From Actinomycetes bacterium (GTDB taxonomy: Bacteria; Actinomycetota; Acidimicrobiia; Acidimicrobiales; RAAP-2): a DNA stretch of 64,000 nucleotides. Under the pieces are notes generated by a model. The model saw only the letters and a list, made by a program, of their open reading frames with translations. It made no database searches and was not told where the DNA came from. Below, piece by piece: positions 37,925-51,964 of the stretch. Where the stretch lies: assembly GCA_021809495.1 (NCBI GenBank), contig JAKAZI010000001.1, forward strand, positions 1 to 64,000, given 5' to 3'. A program made the position numbers and the translations under genes. The first letter of the stretch is position 1; every line of letters begins with the position of its first letter.

Positions 37925-38406
37925 AGTTGCACGATCTCCAGGCCCCCGCCGGCTCCAAGCACCGCAAGAAGATCGTCGGTCGCGGTATCGGCGGACACGG
38001 CGGCAAGACCGCCGGCCGCGGCACCAAGGGTCAGAAGGCCCGCCGCCAGATCCCCGCGGGCTTCGAGGGTGGCCAGCTGCCCCTGATGCAGCGCATCCCC
38101 AAGCTCAAGGGCTTCACGAACCCGTTCCGCGTGGAGTACACGCCCGTCAACCTCGACGCGATCACCGCGCTCGGGGCCGACGTCGTCACGCCCGAGGTGC
38201 TCGTCGCCAACGGGCTGGCGCGAAAGAACGACCTCGTGAAGGTGCTCGGTCGCGGCTCACTCGACAAGGCGGTCTCAATCTCGGCGCACGGATTCTCGGC
38301 GTCGGCTCGCAGCGCCATCGAGGCGGCCGGTGGCAGCGTCACCGTCTTGGACAAGCCCTTCGCGGTTCGTCCGCCGGCCTCCGGCAACCAGCACCAGAAC
38401 CGCTAG
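37921..38406 (+). CDS. rplO: 50S ribosomal protein L15
   Basis: [41 protein letters not shown]. Confidence 0.98.
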   Translation: MKLHDLQAPAGSKHRKKIVGRGIGGHGGKTAGRGTKGQKARRQIPAGFEGGQLPLMQRIPKLKGFTNPFRVEYTPVNLDAITALGADVVTPEVLVANGLARKNDLVKVLGRGSLDKAVSISAHGFSASARSAIEAAGGSVTVLDKPFAVRPPASGNQHQNR

Positions 38407-41771: not shown

Positions 41772-42416
41772 CTAGGGCTCGGGGTGGGCCCGGTCGTGGT
41801 AGCGCTGGGCGAAGAGCGCGGCCTCGGTGCGCCGCTGGAAGCCGAGCTTGGCGAGCAGGTTCGACACGTAGTTCTTCACGGTCTTTTCCGCGAGGAACAT
41901 CTCGGCGGCGATCTCGCGGTTGGAGAGGCCCTCACTCAGCAGCTCCAGGATCCGGCGCTCCTGGTGGCTCAGGCTCTCGAGGCGGATGTCCTCGGTGATC
42001 TGGCGGCGCAGGCGCTCGCGGGCCCGTTCGATCTGGTCGCTACTGAGCAGCATCTCGCCGTTGGCGACGCGGCGAATCGAGTCCACCAGGTCGTCGCCGC
42101 GCACGTTCTTCAAGACGTAGCCCTTGGCCCCGGCGAGCACCGAGGCCGACATGGCCTCGTTGTCCGCGAAGGACGTGAGCATCAGGCACGCGAGGTCGAT
42201 GCGCCGATCGCGCAGCGTGCGACAGAGGTCGACCCCGCTGCCGTCGGGCAGGCGCACGTCGAGCACGGCCACGTCGATGGCGTCGACGTCGACGGACTCG
42301 GCCTCCTCGACCGAGGCGGCCTCGGCCACGACCGACAGGTCGTCGTGGGCCTCGAGCAACTCGCGCAGACCCCGGCGCACGATCTCGTGGTCGTCGACCA
42401 GGAGCAGCCGGATCAC
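41772..42416 (-). CDS. NarL/FixJ (DevR/DosR-like) response regulator
   Basis: LLLVDDHEIVRRGLRELL receiver; LSHQERRILELLSEGLSNREIAAEMFLAEKTVKNYVSNLLAKLGFQRRTEAALFA LuxR HTH; probable GTG start. Confidence 0.93.
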   Translation of the reverse strand: MIRLLLVDDHEIVRRGLRELLEAHDDLSVVAEAASVEEAESVDVDAIDVAVLDVRLPDGSGVDLCRTLRDRRIDLACLMLTSFADNEAMSASVLAGAKGYVLKNVRGDDLVDSIRRVANGEMLLSSDQIERARERLRRQITEDIRLESLSHQERRILELLSEGLSNREIAAEMFLAEKTVKNYVSNLLAKLGFQRRTEAALFAQRYHDRAHPEP

Positions 42417-42417
42417 G

Positions 42418-43569
42418 TCAGTCCTGTCTGAGGGCGGTCCATCGAACCAGTGTGCCACGCCCGGGCTCGGATTCGAACGTGGCGTCGCCGCCGAGCTCGC
42501 GCGCCCGGCTGCGCATGTTGCGAAGCCCCCGTCCGGGGCCGACGGGGGCGGTGAACCCGACGCCGTTGTCGCGCACGCTCAGCACGAGCATCGGCCCCTC
42601 GACGGCGAGGGTGACCTCGGCCTCGCTCGCGCGGGCGTGGCGAGCGACGTTAGAGAGCGCCTCGCGCAGCGCCTGGAGGGCGTGGCGGGCACAGCGCGTC
42701 GAGAGCTCGAGGTCGGCCTCGTTGGGCAGGCGCAGCGTGACCTTGATGCCGAGGCGCGTGGCGACCTCGTCGGACATCGCGCGCAGGCGCGCCACGAGGT
42801 TCGTGCCGTCCACGTCGTCCTGGTCGATCTCGAAGATCGTCGTGCGGATCTCGTGGATGGTCGTGTCCAGTTCGTCCACCGCGCGGTTGATCCGCTCGCG
42901 ATCGGCCTCGTTCAGGGTGGAGCGCAGCGTGATCTGCAGGGCGAGCCCGACGCCGAAGAGCCGCTGGATCACGGTGTCGTGCAGGTCGCGCGCGAGTCGC
43001 TCGCGCTCTTCGCCGAGGGTGAGCTCGCGCAGGTGGTGGCGGATCGTGGCCTGGTCGATCACGAGGCCCGCCGCGCGGCCGAAGGCCTCGACCAGGATCT
43101 CGTCCTCCTCGTCGAAGGGTCGTCCGTCGGTCCGATCGGTCAGGTAGAGGTTGCCAAAGACGTGGCCGTCGGCGCTCGTGACCGGAACGCCGAGGAAGTT
43201 GGTCATCACCGGGTGGTGCGCGGGGAAGCCGGCTGCGCCCCCGTGGTGCGCGAGGTCCTCCACGCGCACCGGCGCGCCGCCGAGGATCGTCTCGCCGAGC
43301 ACGCCGCGCCCGTGGGGGGCGGCGCCGATGCGTTCGCGCAGTTCGTCGTCGACGCCGTAGGTCACGAAGCGCGAGAGGGTAGCGCCGTCTCTCCCGACCA
43401 CGCCGAGGGCGCCGTAGCGGGCCCCGACGAGCTGGCTCGCGGTCTCGACGATCAGCGTCAGCAGGTCCGAGAGGTCCGCGTCGGTCTCGATAAGCATGAT
43501 CGCGTCGATCAACGCGTGGAGCCTCGCAGGATCGGTGATCCGATGAAAGGGCACGCCCGATTCTCCCAC
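42418..43569 (-). CDS. DevS-like GAF-domain sensor histidine kinase
   Basis: GAF motifs (FPAHHPVMTNFLGVPVTSADGHVFGNLYLTDR), HisKA_3 RERLARDLHDTVIQRLFGVGLALQ, HATPase C-terminus. Confidence 0.93.
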   Translation of the reverse strand: MGESGVPFHRITDPARLHALIDAIMLIETDADLSDLLTLIVETASQLVGARYGALGVVGRDGATLSRFVTYGVDDELRERIGAAPHGRGVLGETILGGAPVRVEDLAHHGGAAGFPAHHPVMTNFLGVPVTSADGHVFGNLYLTDRTDGRPFDEEDEILVEAFGRAAGLVIDQATIRHHLRELTLGEERERLARDLHDTVIQRLFGVGLALQITLRSTLNEADRERINRAVDELDTTIHEIRTTIFEIDQDDVDGTNLVARLRAMSDEVATRLGIKVTLRLPNEADLELSTRCARHALQALREALSNVARHARASEAEVTLAVEGPMLVLSVRDNGVGFTAPVGPGRGLRNMRSRARELGGDATFESEPGRGTLVRWTALRQD

Positions 43570-48170: not shown

Positions 48171-48446
48171 CCAGACAACGGCGAAACGCTCGCGTACTTC
48201 GGGCCCAGGGTGAGAGCGGCTCGGCGACGGACCCGTCTGAGCCCGACCGTCGTCGAGCCGACGACACCGGGCGTCCGCGAGTGCGCCGCGACAACGGCAC
48301 GCGCGGTGGCGTCCGAGCTGTCAACCGGCTGACGGGTGGCGGATCTCCTCTGTAATAAATAGGGAGAAACTATAAGACGTGACAAATACCAATGATGGGA
48401 CTTTGGGCCCTGTTCGCGCGAGAGCGGGCTTCGTACGCTCAGGTTT

Positions 48447-49148
48447 ATGCAAGACATGCAACGCAGCAGGCAGAGTGTGCAGCACCTGGCACCAGCACGC
48501 GACTTCCTGAGCGCGCAAGAGGTAGGGCAGTTGCTCAAGGTCGATCGTTCCACGGTCTATCGGATGGCCGAGAGCGGGGGACTGCCCTCCGTGAAGGTGG
48601 GCCGACAGTGGCGGTTCCCCGCCGCCGCGATCGAGCGCCTGCTGCGAACCGGTGAGCGCGTCGGCGCAACGACCCGCGAAGACCGCGAGGCCATGGTGCG
48701 CGCGGTCGGTTCGTCCCTGCCGCTGATCGAGCTCTCGGCCCAACTGCTCGGGGTCATGATGATCGCGACCGACATGGACGGACAGCCCGTGACCGACCTC
48801 GTCAACCCCTGCGGGTGGTTCGCCCAGCACGCCGAGGACCAGGGTTTCGTGTCGACCTGCCTGGGCTACTGGAAGCAGCTCGCCGACGACCCGGACTTCG
48901 ACGTCCGCTTCCACCTCGGACCGCTCAACGTCGAGTGCGCGCGCACCTTCGTGCGGGTGGGCACGCAGCTCGTCGGCATGCTCTTCGTCGGCGGCATCGA
49001 TCCGACGGGCGAGGACGAGCGACCGCTCTATCGGCTCAACGCCGAAGGTCGGACCCGGGTGCTGACGTACCTGCCGGCCGTCGCCGCGGCGATTTCGCGG
49101 CTCGCGGCGCAACCACGTACGAGCGTCGAGACAGGGAGGACCATATGA
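48447..49148 (+). CDS. Transcriptional regulator: excisionase-type HTH + PocR sensory domain
   Basis: FLSAQEVGQLLKVDRSTVYRMAESGGLPSVKVGRQWRFPAAAIERLL; PocR-like DLVNPCGWF...GFVSTCLGYWKQL...NVECARTFVRVGTQLVGMLFVGGI. Confidence 0.85.
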   Translation: MQDMQRSRQSVQHLAPARDFLSAQEVGQLLKVDRSTVYRMAESGGLPSVKVGRQWRFPAAAIERLLRTGERVGATTREDREAMVRAVGSSLPLIELSAQLLGVMMIATDMDGQPVTDLVNPCGWFAQHAEDQGFVSTCLGYWKQLADDPDFDVRFHLGPLNVECARTFVRVGTQLVGMLFVGGIDPTGEDERPLYRLNAEGRTRVLTYLPAVAAAISRLAAQPRTSVETGRTI

Positions 49149-50386
49149 AACGGCTTCTGATACTGGGCGGCGGGACTGCCGGAACGATGGCGGCGAACCG
49201 CCTTCGCAAGCGGCTCGACCGCGCCGAATGGGAGATCACGGTCGTGGACCAGAACGAGGCCCACGTCTACCAACCCGGGAACCTGTTCGTGCCCTTTGGC
49301 ATCTACGAGCCGAACGATCTGGTGAAGCCGCGTCGCCGGTTCTTGCCCGAGGGGGTGGAGCTGGTGCTCGGCGAGATCGATCGCGTCGAGCCCGAGGACA
49401 ACCGCGTCGTGCTCGCCGACGAGCGGGTGCTCGCCTACGACTACCTGATCATCGCCACGGGCACCTCGCCGCGCCCCGACCAGACGCCGGGCATGCTCGG
49501 GCCACAGTGGCGAAAGAGCATCCACGAGTTCTACACGCTCGAGGGTGCGACGGCCCTGGCCGACACGCTCGCCGACTGGCAGGGTGGGCGCATGGTCGTG
49601 CACATCGTGGACATGCCCATCAAGTGCCCCGTCGCGCCGCTCGAGTTCACGTTCCTCGCCGACGCGTTCTTCACCGAACGAGCGATGCGCGACCGGGTGG
49701 AACTGGTGTTCGTGACGCCGCTCGACGGTGCGTTCACCAAGCCGATCGCCTCCAAGCACCTCGGCGGAATCCTCGAGGAGCGCGGGGTCAGCCTCGAGAG
49801 CGACTTCATGGTCGAACGCATCGACGCCGACGCGAAGACGCTCGTCTCCTTTGACGAGCGCGAGGTCCCCTTCGACCTGCTCGTCACCATCCCGCTCAAC
49901 ATGGGCGCGGACTACGTGGCGCGCTCGGGTCTGGGTGACGACCTCAACTACGTGCCCGTCGACAAGCAGACGCTGCTCGCCAAGGGTTACGACAACATCT
50001 TCGCGCTCGGTGACGCCTCGGACATCCCGACCTCCAAGGCCGGCTCGGTCGCCCACTTCTCGATCGAGTTGTTCGAGGACAACTTCATCAGCCACATCCA
50101 CGGTCGTCCCATGACCAAGCTCTTCGACGGCCACGCCAACTGCTTCATCGAATCCGGCCACGGCAAGGGCATGCTCATCGACTTCAACTACGACACCGAG
50201 CCGCTGCCCGGCAAGTACCCACTGCCCGGCTTCGGCCCGTTCAGCCTGCTGCGCGAGTCCGAGGCGAACCACTGGGGCAAGATGACCTTCCGCTGGGTCT
50301 ACTGGAACCTGCTGCTCACCGGTAAGGAGATGCCCTTCGAGCCACTGATGTCGATGGCCGGCAAAGAGGTCGAGGTGCACGCATGA
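49145..50386 (+). CDS. Sulfide:quinone oxidoreductase-like FAD/NAD(P)-dependent oxidoreductase
   Basis: MKRLLILGGGTAGTMAANRLRKRL Rossmann motif; VDMPIKCPVAPLEFTFLAD; GDASDIPTSKAGSVAHF; GHANCFIESG; C-terminal aromatic/amphipathic helices. Confidence 0.88.
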   Translation: MKRLLILGGGTAGTMAANRLRKRLDRAEWEITVVDQNEAHVYQPGNLFVPFGIYEPNDLVKPRRRFLPEGVELVLGEIDRVEPEDNRVVLADERVLAYDYLIIATGTSPRPDQTPGMLGPQWRKSIHEFYTLEGATALADTLADWQGGRMVVHIVDMPIKCPVAPLEFTFLADAFFTERAMRDRVELVFVTPLDGAFTKPIASKHLGGILEERGVSLESDFMVERIDADAKTLVSFDEREVPFDLLVTIPLNMGADYVARSGLGDDLNYVPVDKQTLLAKGYDNIFALGDASDIPTSKAGSVAHFSIELFEDNFISHIHGRPMTKLFDGHANCFIESGHGKGMLIDFNYDTEPLPGKYPLPGFGPFSLLRESEANHWGKMTFRWVYWNLLLTGKEMPFEPLMSMAGKEVEVHA

Positions 50387-51105
50387 GCGTCACGACCTCG
50401 CCAACCGTGGAAGAACGCCTCGAGCGCATGGCCGAGCAACTCGCCGAGGTCACCGACGAGTTGCGCCGCCAGCGCGAGAGCCGCGAGCGCTGGCAGGAAC
50501 TGCTCGACGACCTCGCGCCACTCGCCGAACAGGCGATGTCCACCACCATCAGCCACCTCGACCTCGACTCGAGCGACGTGGAGAATCTGTTCAACCTCGC
50601 CCACACCTTCGCGCGCAACGCGTCGGTGCTCGAGGCGTGGATCGGCCCGCTGCGCTCGATGTCGGCACTGGCCGAGGAGCTGGCCCCGCTCGCCACCCCC
50701 GCCGTCGCCAGTCTGAACGAGCGACTCCAGCAGCTCGACGAGCGGGGCTACTTCGCCTTCGCCCGGCGCAGCGTCGACGTGCTGGACAACGTGGTGACCT
50801 CCTTTAGCGAAGAGGACGTCAGGTTGCTCGGCGAGAACATCGTGCTCATCCTCCAGACGATCAGACAGATGACCCAACCCGAGGTCATGGGCATGCTTTC
50901 GCGCACCGCGCTGACCATGCAGCAAGAGGAGCCGGCGGCCGAGGCGCCGTCGCTTCGCGGGCTCGTGCGACAGTTCCGCGACCCGCTGGTGCGCCACGGA
51001 CTCGCCCGGACCCTCGTCGCGCTGCGATCGGTGGGTGCGGAGTCGAACCGGCGACGCGAGCCAGATACGCAAGCGACGCCTGATCAGAAGAGCAAGAGGA
51101 GGTAG
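50383..51105 (+). CDS. DUF1641-domain protein
   Basis: Helical; FAFARRSVDVLDNVVTSFSEEDVRLLGENIVLILQTIRQMTQPEVMGML; ATGA overlap with SQR-like gene. Confidence 0.82.
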   Translation: MSVTTSPTVEERLERMAEQLAEVTDELRRQRESRERWQELLDDLAPLAEQAMSTTISHLDLDSSDVENLFNLAHTFARNASVLEAWIGPLRSMSALAEELAPLATPAVASLNERLQQLDERGYFAFARRSVDVLDNVVTSFSEEDVRLLGENIVLILQTIRQMTQPEVMGMLSRTALTMQQEEPAAEAPSLRGLVRQFRDPLVRHGLARTLVALRSVGAESNRRREPDTQATPDQKSKRR

Positions 51106-51110
51106 TCATC

Positions 51111-51425
51111 ATGACCACAGCGACAATCAACGGCAGCGAAGTCCACGTCGACGCGGAGGGTTTCCTGACCGACTACGACGAGTGGACGGAGGAACTGGCG
51201 CAGGTGCTCGCCGCGAACATCGGCATCGAGCTGACCGACGAGCACTGGGACGTCATTCGCTTCCTGCGCGAGGACTTCCCCCGCCAGGGCGAGACGGCGA
51301 CGATCCGGCGCACGTCAACGGTGGGCGGCTTTGACACCAAGAGGCTGTTCGTACTGTTCCCGAAGAAGCCGGCGAAGAAGATGGCCTACATCGCTGGACT
51401 GCCCAAGCCGAGGGGCTGCGTGTAA
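51111..51425 (+). CDS. TusE/DsrC-like sulfur relay protein
   Basis: DAEGFLTDYDEWTEELAQVLAANIGIELTDEHWDVIRFLREDF; C-terminal IAGLPKPRGCV arm with penultimate Cys. Confidence 0.92.
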   Translation: MTTATINGSEVHVDAEGFLTDYDEWTEELAQVLAANIGIELTDEHWDVIRFLREDFPRQGETATIRRTSTVGGFDTKRLFVLFPKKPAKKMAYIAGLPKPRGCV

Positions 51426-51448
51426 CAACCGAAAGAGGAGGCAACGCA

Positions 51449-51964
51449 ATGACTGAAGAGAAGGTCGAATCGACCGCGCCGGTACCGAATTTCGATGGGG
51501 GCGAGACGGATCGCAAACTCGCCATCATCTGTTCCAAGGGCAATCTCGACATGGCCTACCCCGGGCTGGTGCTCGGCAACGCCGCCCTCGGTGAGGGCAT
51601 CGAGGTCCACCTGTTCTTCACCTTCTGGGGATTCGACATGATCACCAAGAAGCGCATGAACAACCTGAAGTTGACGCCGCTCGGCAACACCGCGATGCAC
51701 ATGCCCCAGGGACTCGGCGGCGTGCCGGGCGTGACGGCGATGGCGACCGCGATGATGCGCAAGCAGATCGAGGCCGTTGGCGTGCCCGAGGTGCCGGACT
51801 TCCTCGAGCAGATCGTGGCGTCGGGCGGACACCTGTGGGCGTGCAAGATGTCGGCGGACATGATGAAGCTTGAAAAGGACGATCTCTACGACGCCGTCGA
51901 GGGGATTATCAACGCGAGCGACTTCATCGAAATCGCCGACGGAGCCCAGCTCCTGTTCATCTAG
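51449..51964 (+). CDS. DsrE2-like (DsrE/DsrF family) protein
   Basis: RKLAIICSKGNLDMAYPGLVLGNAALGEGIEVHLFFTFWGFDMIT; GGHLWACKMSADMMKLEKDDL. Confidence 0.9.
   Translation: MTEEKVESTAPVPNFDGGETDRKLAIICSKGNLDMAYPGLVLGNAALGEGIEVHLFFTFWGFDMITKKRMNNLKLTPLGNTAMHMPQGLGGVPGVTAMATAMMRKQIEAVGVPEVPDFLEQIVASGGHLWACKMSADMMKLEKDDLYDAVEGIINASDFIEIADGAQLLFI

Follow-up and report, generated by a model that had tools for sequence, protein, structure and literature searches.

The window, a 64,000-nt stretch (positions 1 to 64,000 of contig JAKAZI010000001.1, assembly GCA_021809495.1), contains five intact co-directional open reading frames on the + strand, at 48447-49148, 49145-50386, 50383-51105, 51111-51425 and 51449-51964. 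They lie where the original prediction had placed them and their spacing was exactly as described, with two 4-nt overlaps followed by gaps of 5 nt and 23 nt. When the locus was compared with its orthologue L051 (90% SQR identity), third codon positions held most of the differences and dN/dS was ~0.10-0.29 for all five genes; since the gene order of the cassette is also kept far beyond the genus, these reading frames are judged to be real genes under purifying selection and not chance ORFs. The identities proposed for their products, namely a PocR-type regulator, a sulfide:quinone oxidoreductase (SQR), a DUF1641 protein, a DsrC of the TusE type and a DsrE2, had strong support from family models, from cysteines that do not vary and from the conservation of the cassette across phyla, as did the view that the five genes form one unit. 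At the level of domain models the agreement was partial: in the window copies HTH_17, Pyr_redox_2, DsrC and DsrE_2 exceeded the Pfam cut-offs, whereas DUF1641 fell below its own and PocR was not detected.

The flavoprotein (49145..50386, +) gave a full-length match to NF049943, the NCBIfam model of the type III SQR "selenoprotein subtype" (640.8 bits, cut-off 525). The type III label of the window protein is that of this model, its best PDB match being human SQOR (149 bits, 1.7e-42), which we take to be a type II enzyme. The best NDH-2 chain reached 38 bits, so that by score the protein does not group with NDH-2, in keeping with the SQR-like character originally assigned; the NF049943 match and the PDB scores ruled out an NDH-2 or a CoA-disulfide reductase. 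Gly8, Gly10 and Gly13 of the FAD-binding GxGxxG motif were invariant in the SQR alignment, and the redox cysteines Cys161 and Cys333 were present in 100/100 and 99/100 homologues, respectively. By these sequence criteria the flavoprotein is a sulfide:quinone oxidoreductase. At the HxxU position the window gene has a cysteine codon (TGC), in contrast to the TGA of seven Actinomycetota relatives, so it encodes the Cys form of the selenoprotein subtype and not a selenoprotein.

The product of the third gene (50383..51105, +) is all-helical and has no cysteine. It scored 15.9 with the DUF1641 model (PF07849, cut-off 21), and 25/25 homologues at the same gene position matched this family (E up to 0.1; best 5.9e-9); the structure model of the window protein was helical, with a pTM of 0.28. 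In Bacillus subtilis, the DUF1641 protein ForE is required for menaquinone binding and reduction in the ForCE1 formate dehydrogenase (PMC8808070). On the basis of this precedent, the homologues and the helical model, the window protein, which resembles ForE, is predicted to be a quinone-coupling accessory subunit. As in ForCE, the DUF1641 gene adjoins that of a catalytic oxidoreductase (PMC8808070); unlike in ForCE, which is a molybdenum formate dehydrogenase, the partner is a flavoprotein SQR and the window DUF1641 copy lies below the Pfam cut-off. The protein is not obligatory to the cassette, because about half of the cassettes (40/82) are devoid of its gene.

The last two genes encode putative sulfur carriers. 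The DsrC (51111..51425, +; PF04358, 114.5 bits, cut-off 24.9) has Cys103 as CysA and Ala92 at the CysB position, 11 residues before it; CysA was kept in 91/91 DsrC proteins, all of which had A, S or T in place of CysB. A DsrC with CysA only is as described in organisms without DsrAB (PMC3397948), and by this signature, with DsrAB absent, the cassette protein is of the TusE type. The DsrE2 (51449..51964, +; PF13686, DsrE_2, 115.6 bits, cut-off 25) bears a cysteine, Cys132, that was found in 86/86 homologues, and missed the cut-off of the DsrE2 equivalog NF047629 (112 vs 210 bits).

The original prediction treated the arrangement as a feature of the window, but the cassette is widespread. Among the loci with 2 kb or more of downstream sequence, which were taken as informative (n=82), DsrC and DsrE2 lay directly 3' of SQR in 80, from at least 8 phyla, so the gene-neighbourhood check proposed earlier gave SQR-DsrC-DsrE2, with DUF1641 in about half, as the common order. 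DsrC was found in 22/101 close relatives, each time adjoining the cassette SQR, and was the sole DsrC of the genome in 39/40 cassette genomes. No dsrA exceeded the cut-off in these 40 genomes; the only credible one (G112) lay beside a second, CysB-bearing DsrC. This, together with the missing CysB of the cassette proteins, ruled out the Dsr pathway and a DsrC of that pathway, and the absence of TusA from 25/40 cassette genomes ruled it out as an obligatory partner. Judged from the sole DsrC, the single credible dsrA and the many genomes without TusA, the proposed relay is independent of both Dsr and TusA. The original prediction had noted no TusA, dsrAB or sHdr gene in the window; extending the search to the whole genome gave no dsrA and no CCG domain (no HdrB), which ruled out sHdr there, but one TusA gene was present on another contig.

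The first gene (48447..49148, +) encodes a regulator with an N-terminal HTH_17 domain (55.2 bits) and a PocR-like sensory domain with Cys122, Cys138 and Cys164, which were kept in 16-19 of 22 proteins. Although PocR (PF10114) was undetected in the window copy, 14/16 homologues at the same gene position matched it (best 6e-35). Two TGCA half-sites (48448 and 48457; 48448..48460, +) lie 9 bp apart. Pairs with exactly this spacing numbered 21 in the 19 loci that have the regulator gene (0.24 expected) and 5 in 4 Chloroflexota loci that have it, whereas the 36 Actinomycetota loci lacking the gene had no such pair. Because they track the PocR-HTH gene, these repeats are predicted to be the operator of the regulator.

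Further upstream, a DosR/DevR-type box, GGGACTTTGGGCCCT (48397..48411, +), matched exactly the published stringent consensus GGGACTTNNGNCCCT (PMC6448022); just 2 sites in the whole 1.54-Mb genome do so. The box sits at the promoter position, with a predicted -10 element TACGCT (48434..48439, +) found 22 nt after it and 7 nt before the ATG, which predicts a leaderless transcript. A generic sigma-70 scan found no promoter; TANNNT was located 19-25 nt 3' of the box in 15/33 loci, with 1.6 expected. Boxes preceded 15/51 Actinomycetota cassettes at ≤1 mismatch (~0.1 expected from shuffles, which ignore relatedness among loci) and 23/51 at ≤2 mismatches, so they were recognisable in only a minority. 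Since the box is found before Actinomycetota cassettes without the regulator gene and not before Chloroflexota cassettes that have it, the PocR-HTH protein was rejected as the reader of the GGGACTT box. A better candidate is the DosR/DevR-like response regulator (41772..42458, -) encoded ~5 kb upstream of the operon, whose best PDB match was DevR of M. tuberculosis (3c3w, 203 bits; next VraR, 123). It is paired with a DosS/DosT-like sensor histidine kinase (42418..43569, -) with HisKA_3, HATPase_c and one GAF domain, whose best PDB matches were GAF domains from kinases of the DevS type (146 and 125 bits). The original prediction had included neither the box, nor the TGCA repeats spaced by 9 bp in the promoter region, nor this DosRS-like pair 5 kb away.

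These features make it fairly probable that the locus is a sulfide-oxidising module in which SQR delivers electrons to quinone and sulfur follows a persulfide relay from DsrE2 to DsrC, under DosR-type and PocR-HTH control. Sulfide would be oxidised at the FAD and the Cys161/Cys333 pair, with electrons passing to the quinone pool, and the DUF1641 protein may aid SQR as a ForE-like quinone-coupling subunit. Sulfane sulfur would leave SQR as a protein persulfide and move to Cys132 of DsrE2 and then to Cys103 of DsrC, an order that we infer from the invariant cysteines, the strict linkage and the known transfer from DsrEFH to DsrC; DsrC would then pass it to an acceptor encoded outside the cassette. 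In Actinomycetota, transcription would proceed from the DosR-type promoter, where the box is present and its binding presumed, while the PocR-HTH protein may bind the TGCA repeats at the transcript start and fine-tune the operon that encodes it, with a sulfur ligand as the probable signal. The most likely role would be to clear toxic sulfide, with quinone taking the electrons and a relay of protein persulfides under hypoxia control, and to gain electrons near the oxic-anoxic boundary.

Type III is the least known SQR type, and in Methylacidiphilum fumariolicum a type III SQR-TusA-DsrE2 operon (MFUM_v2_0219-21) is up-regulated ~1.7-fold under H2S (PMC10205796). The cassette is similar in that a type III SQR goes together with DsrE2 (co-transcribed in M. 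fumariolicum) and differs in having a TusE-type DsrC as carrier instead of TusA, which is missing from most cassette genomes, as well as DUF1641 and PocR-HTH genes. With the DsrEFH-DsrC relay of Allochromatium vinosum and the TusBCD-TusE relay of E. coli (PMC3397948) it has in common DsrE-type and DsrC/TusE proteins whose persulfide cysteine is invariant; it departs from these systems in having DsrE2 instead of the heterohexamer, SQR as the sulfur source encoded alongside, no DsrAB and a DsrC devoid of CysB. More tentatively, the cassette may represent an undescribed and widespread pathway from sulfide to protein persulfide, in which a type III SQR loads a dedicated DsrE2 and TusE-type DsrC without TusA, Dsr or sHdr. 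DUF1641 would then be a subunit of general use in quinone coupling, common to this pathway and the ForCE formate dehydrogenases, and Actinomycetota would have brought the cassette under hypoxia control by DosR, with a PocR-type protein as second regulator acting on TGCA sites repeated every 9 bp.

The single-cysteine DsrC also resembles TusE in a way that would suit biosynthesis rather than removal, with SQR replacing a cysteine desulfurase and DsrC passing the sulfur taken from sulfide to an enzyme of tRNA thiolation, for instance MnmA, the known partner of TusE (PMC3397948); TusA would not be needed. We consider this unlikely, because a cassette as sporadic as this one (22 of 101 close relatives) is odd for a housekeeping function and its DosR-, Fnr-, CsoR- or PocR-type control points to a conditional one. 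The cassette has no TusBCD, which, with TusA missing from 25/40 genomes, speaks against a TusE of the Tus tRNA-thiolation relay acting on MnmA.

It is likewise improbable that the SQR-like enzyme works in reverse or on another substrate, reducing polysulfide or a protein persulfide with quinol while DsrC and DsrE2 supply the sulfane sulfur. The Sec-bearing relatives, from Actinomycetota of family f64, had AprBA, a DsrEFH-like trio and TusA close by in the one locus examined, suggesting that the enzyme family also takes part in anaerobic sulfur metabolism. However, known SQRs work in the direction of sulfide oxidation, and many cassette hosts belong to genera that we presume to be aerobic (Nocardioides, Kribbella and Terrabacter). 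The closest operon with data is, moreover, induced by H2S (PMC10205796). It is very doubtful that in the window genome the module feeds an energy pathway, with more oxidation steps or electron transfer by way of a cluster on contig C18 that encodes TusA, FlpD/MvhD, another DsrE2 and an HdrA-like flavoprotein of 920 aa. The genome has no HdrB-type CCG domain, and its closest relative with the cassette, G025 (93% complete), lacks TusA, so this cluster cannot be the general acceptor.

Sulfide removal through the DsrE2-DsrC relay would bear on where sulfane sulfur goes once SQR has formed it in organisms that have neither Dsr nor sHdr (PMC10205796), for which a carrier pair in strict linkage, with one copy in each genome, offers a defined and testable answer, also in culturable Nocardioides. 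If true, DUF1641 gains a general quinone-coupling role, and sulfide handling joins the functions under DosR-type hypoxia regulators, well beyond mycobacteria. As in the mycobacterial DosR regulon, the box fits the published consensus and DosR- and DosS-like genes are encoded, here 5 kb off (PMC6448022, PMC2275270); in contrast, the predicted target is a sulfide oxidation operon, of which no report under DosR was found in the regulon literature (PMC6448022, PMC2275270). The other boxes of the genome are not in themselves evidence of a DosR regulon. Among the exact or near matches, one is located directly 5' of an isocitrate-dehydrogenase-like gene, one within an IS21-like transposition gene (names read from the translations) and one in a setting without a clear assignment, and a 1-mismatch box at 38027 falls inside a gene for a ribosomal protein on the opposite strand.

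The five ORFs of the cassette, all on the forward strand, lay at 48447-49148 (PocR-HTH regulator), 49145-50386 (SQR), 50383-51105 (DUF1641), 51111-51425 (DsrC) and 51449-51964 (DsrE2), with two 4-nt overlaps and two gaps, in agreement with the original prediction of a putative sulfur operon. Comparison of the window with the orthologous locus L051 gave dN/dS values of ~0.10-0.29, indicating purifying selection on all five ORFs. The assembly from which the window comes (G000) has 1.54 Mb and is 89% complete; its nearest relatives with a name place it in the Actinomycetota. The flavoprotein matched the NCBIfam model NF049943 (type III SQR, selenoprotein subtype) from end to end with 640.8 bits, the cut-off being 525 bits, and the solved structures closest to it were mitochondrial SQOR chains (149 bits vs 38 bits for the best NDH-2 chain), so that its earlier assignment as SQR-like, and not as NDH-2, was upheld.

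The redox cysteines of the SQR, Cys161 and Cys333, were kept in 100/100 and 99/100 homologues, respectively, and Cys333 aligns with the HxxU site of selenoprotein-subtype SQRs (PMC13188914). A TGA codon was found at exactly this position in seven Actinomycetota relatives, and the SQR of the window is therefore the Cys form. At one Sec-form locus (L165, G190:C30:246000-259000), which lacked the DsrC/DsrE2 cassette, the SQR was close to a DsrEFH/TusBCD-like trio, TusA and AprBA, the non-SQR names being read from translations. Two further SQR homologues (L049 and L050) had no DsrC or DsrE2 nearby, and that of L049 had lost the Cys333 equivalent (HGTG).

Since the loci were collected by SQR similarity, the set represents this SQR clade and not all SQRs; counts were restricted to the 82 loci with at least 2 kb downstream. 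DsrC and DsrE2 were located directly 3' of the SQR in 80 of them and DUF1641 was present in 42, showing that the SQR-DsrC-DsrE2 part of the original prediction recurs. The host phyla included Actinomycetota, Chloroflexota, Bacteroidota, Ignavibacteriota, Verrucomicrobiota, Calditrichota, Rhodothermota and Deinococcota. Mapped onto the SQR tree, DUF1641 presence was clustered, requiring 7 changes vs 30.1 with shuffled labels, and forms with and without it were found inside the same genus. The DUF1641 and PocR identities proposed earlier were sustained by the homologues of the same gene positions, where the domains were clear in 25/25 and found in 14/16, respectively, but not by the window copies themselves, in which DUF1641 was weak and PocR was undetected.

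The CysA of DsrC (Cys103) was conserved in 91/91 homologues, and the CysB position, Ala92 in the window, was occupied by Ala, Ser or Thr in 91/91; DsrC proteins with CysA but without CysB have been reported in organisms without DsrAB (PMC3397948). Cys132 of DsrE2 was likewise invariant (86/86 homologues). DsrC was found in 22/101 relatives, always adjoining this SQR, and the cassette copy was the sole DsrC in 39 of the 40 cassette genomes, the exception (G112) having a credible dsrA and a second, CysB-bearing DsrC. TusA was not found in 25 of these 40 genomes. One cluster on another contig of the G000 assembly (C18, L131:7653-11710) contained TusA, FlpD/MvhD, a second DsrE2 and a 920-aa HdrA-like flavoprotein bearing ferredoxin-type motifs; HdrB was absent from this cluster, and no CCG domain was found in the G000 genome.

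Members of the SQR family oxidise sulfide and reduce quinone. The SQR of the cassette would oxidise sulfide and pass the electrons to quinone, and the sulfur could then move from SQR to DsrE2 and on to DsrC. Sulfur transfer from DsrEFH to DsrC is known in A. vinosum (PMC3397948). ForE is a DUF1641 protein that ForCE1 needs for menaquinone binding and reduction (PMC8808070), and by analogy the DUF1641 protein of the cassette may have a ForE-like role in quinone coupling. An operon of Methylacidiphilum that encodes a type III SQR, TusA and DsrE2 is ~1.7-fold up under H2S (PMC10205796).

Upstream of the regulator gene, the window and L051 have in common a stretch centred on GGGACTTT. The predicted DosR box at 48397-48411 was an exact match to the published stringent consensus GGGACTTNNGNCCCT (PMC6448022). 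Boxes with at most one mismatch were found within 200 bp upstream of 15/51 other Actinomycetota cassettes, where 0.06 (shuffles, which ignore kinship among loci) or 0.16 (sliding windows) were expected, and in 0/33 cassettes of other phyla. Whole genomes contained 0-6 exact boxes, G000 having two. In 15 of the 33 box-bearing loci, which are partly related, TANNNT occurred 19-25 nt 3' of the box (1.6 expected); in the window, the predicted promoter element TACGCT lies 22 nt 3' of the box and 7 nt 5' of the ATG. A response regulator (41772-42458, reverse strand) and a kinase (42418-43569, reverse strand) are encoded about 5 kb upstream of the operon; the nearest match of the former was M. tuberculosis DevR, and those of the latter were DevS-type kinases. 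Another DosR-like box, with one mismatch, at 38027-38041 (reverse strand) lies inside a ribosomal protein gene and is probably due to chance. The parts and chemistry of the cassette belong to known kinds; the literature searched, which has few subscription papers, contained no description of the SQR-DUF1641-DsrC-DsrE2 combination as a unit, of its exclusive DsrC or of its DosR-type promoter.

Pairs of TGCA exactly 9 bp apart numbered 21 in the 19 loci with the PocR-HTH gene (0.24 expected; maximum of 3 in 1000 shuffles), and none was found in the 36 Actinomycetota loci without it. Chloroflexota with this gene had five such pairs in four loci. The TGCA array, with half-sites at 48448 and 48457 in the window, is a predicted second operator of PocR-HTH cassettes; it partly overlaps N-terminal codons, and a protein-level cause of the repeats therefore retains some plausibility. 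Upstream ATACC-N6-GGTAT palindromes, which resemble CsoR-family operators, were present in 6/35 cassettes without the PocR-HTH gene (L053, L054, L074, L075, L077 and L079, all Actinomycetota). Several cassettes were flanked by CsoR-like and DUF302-like genes. A divergent Crp/Fnr-like gene was located immediately 5' of the cassette in ~17 loci (Bacteroidota such as L085, L095, L105 and L117), and a MerR-like gene was found in six other loci, both names being read from translations.
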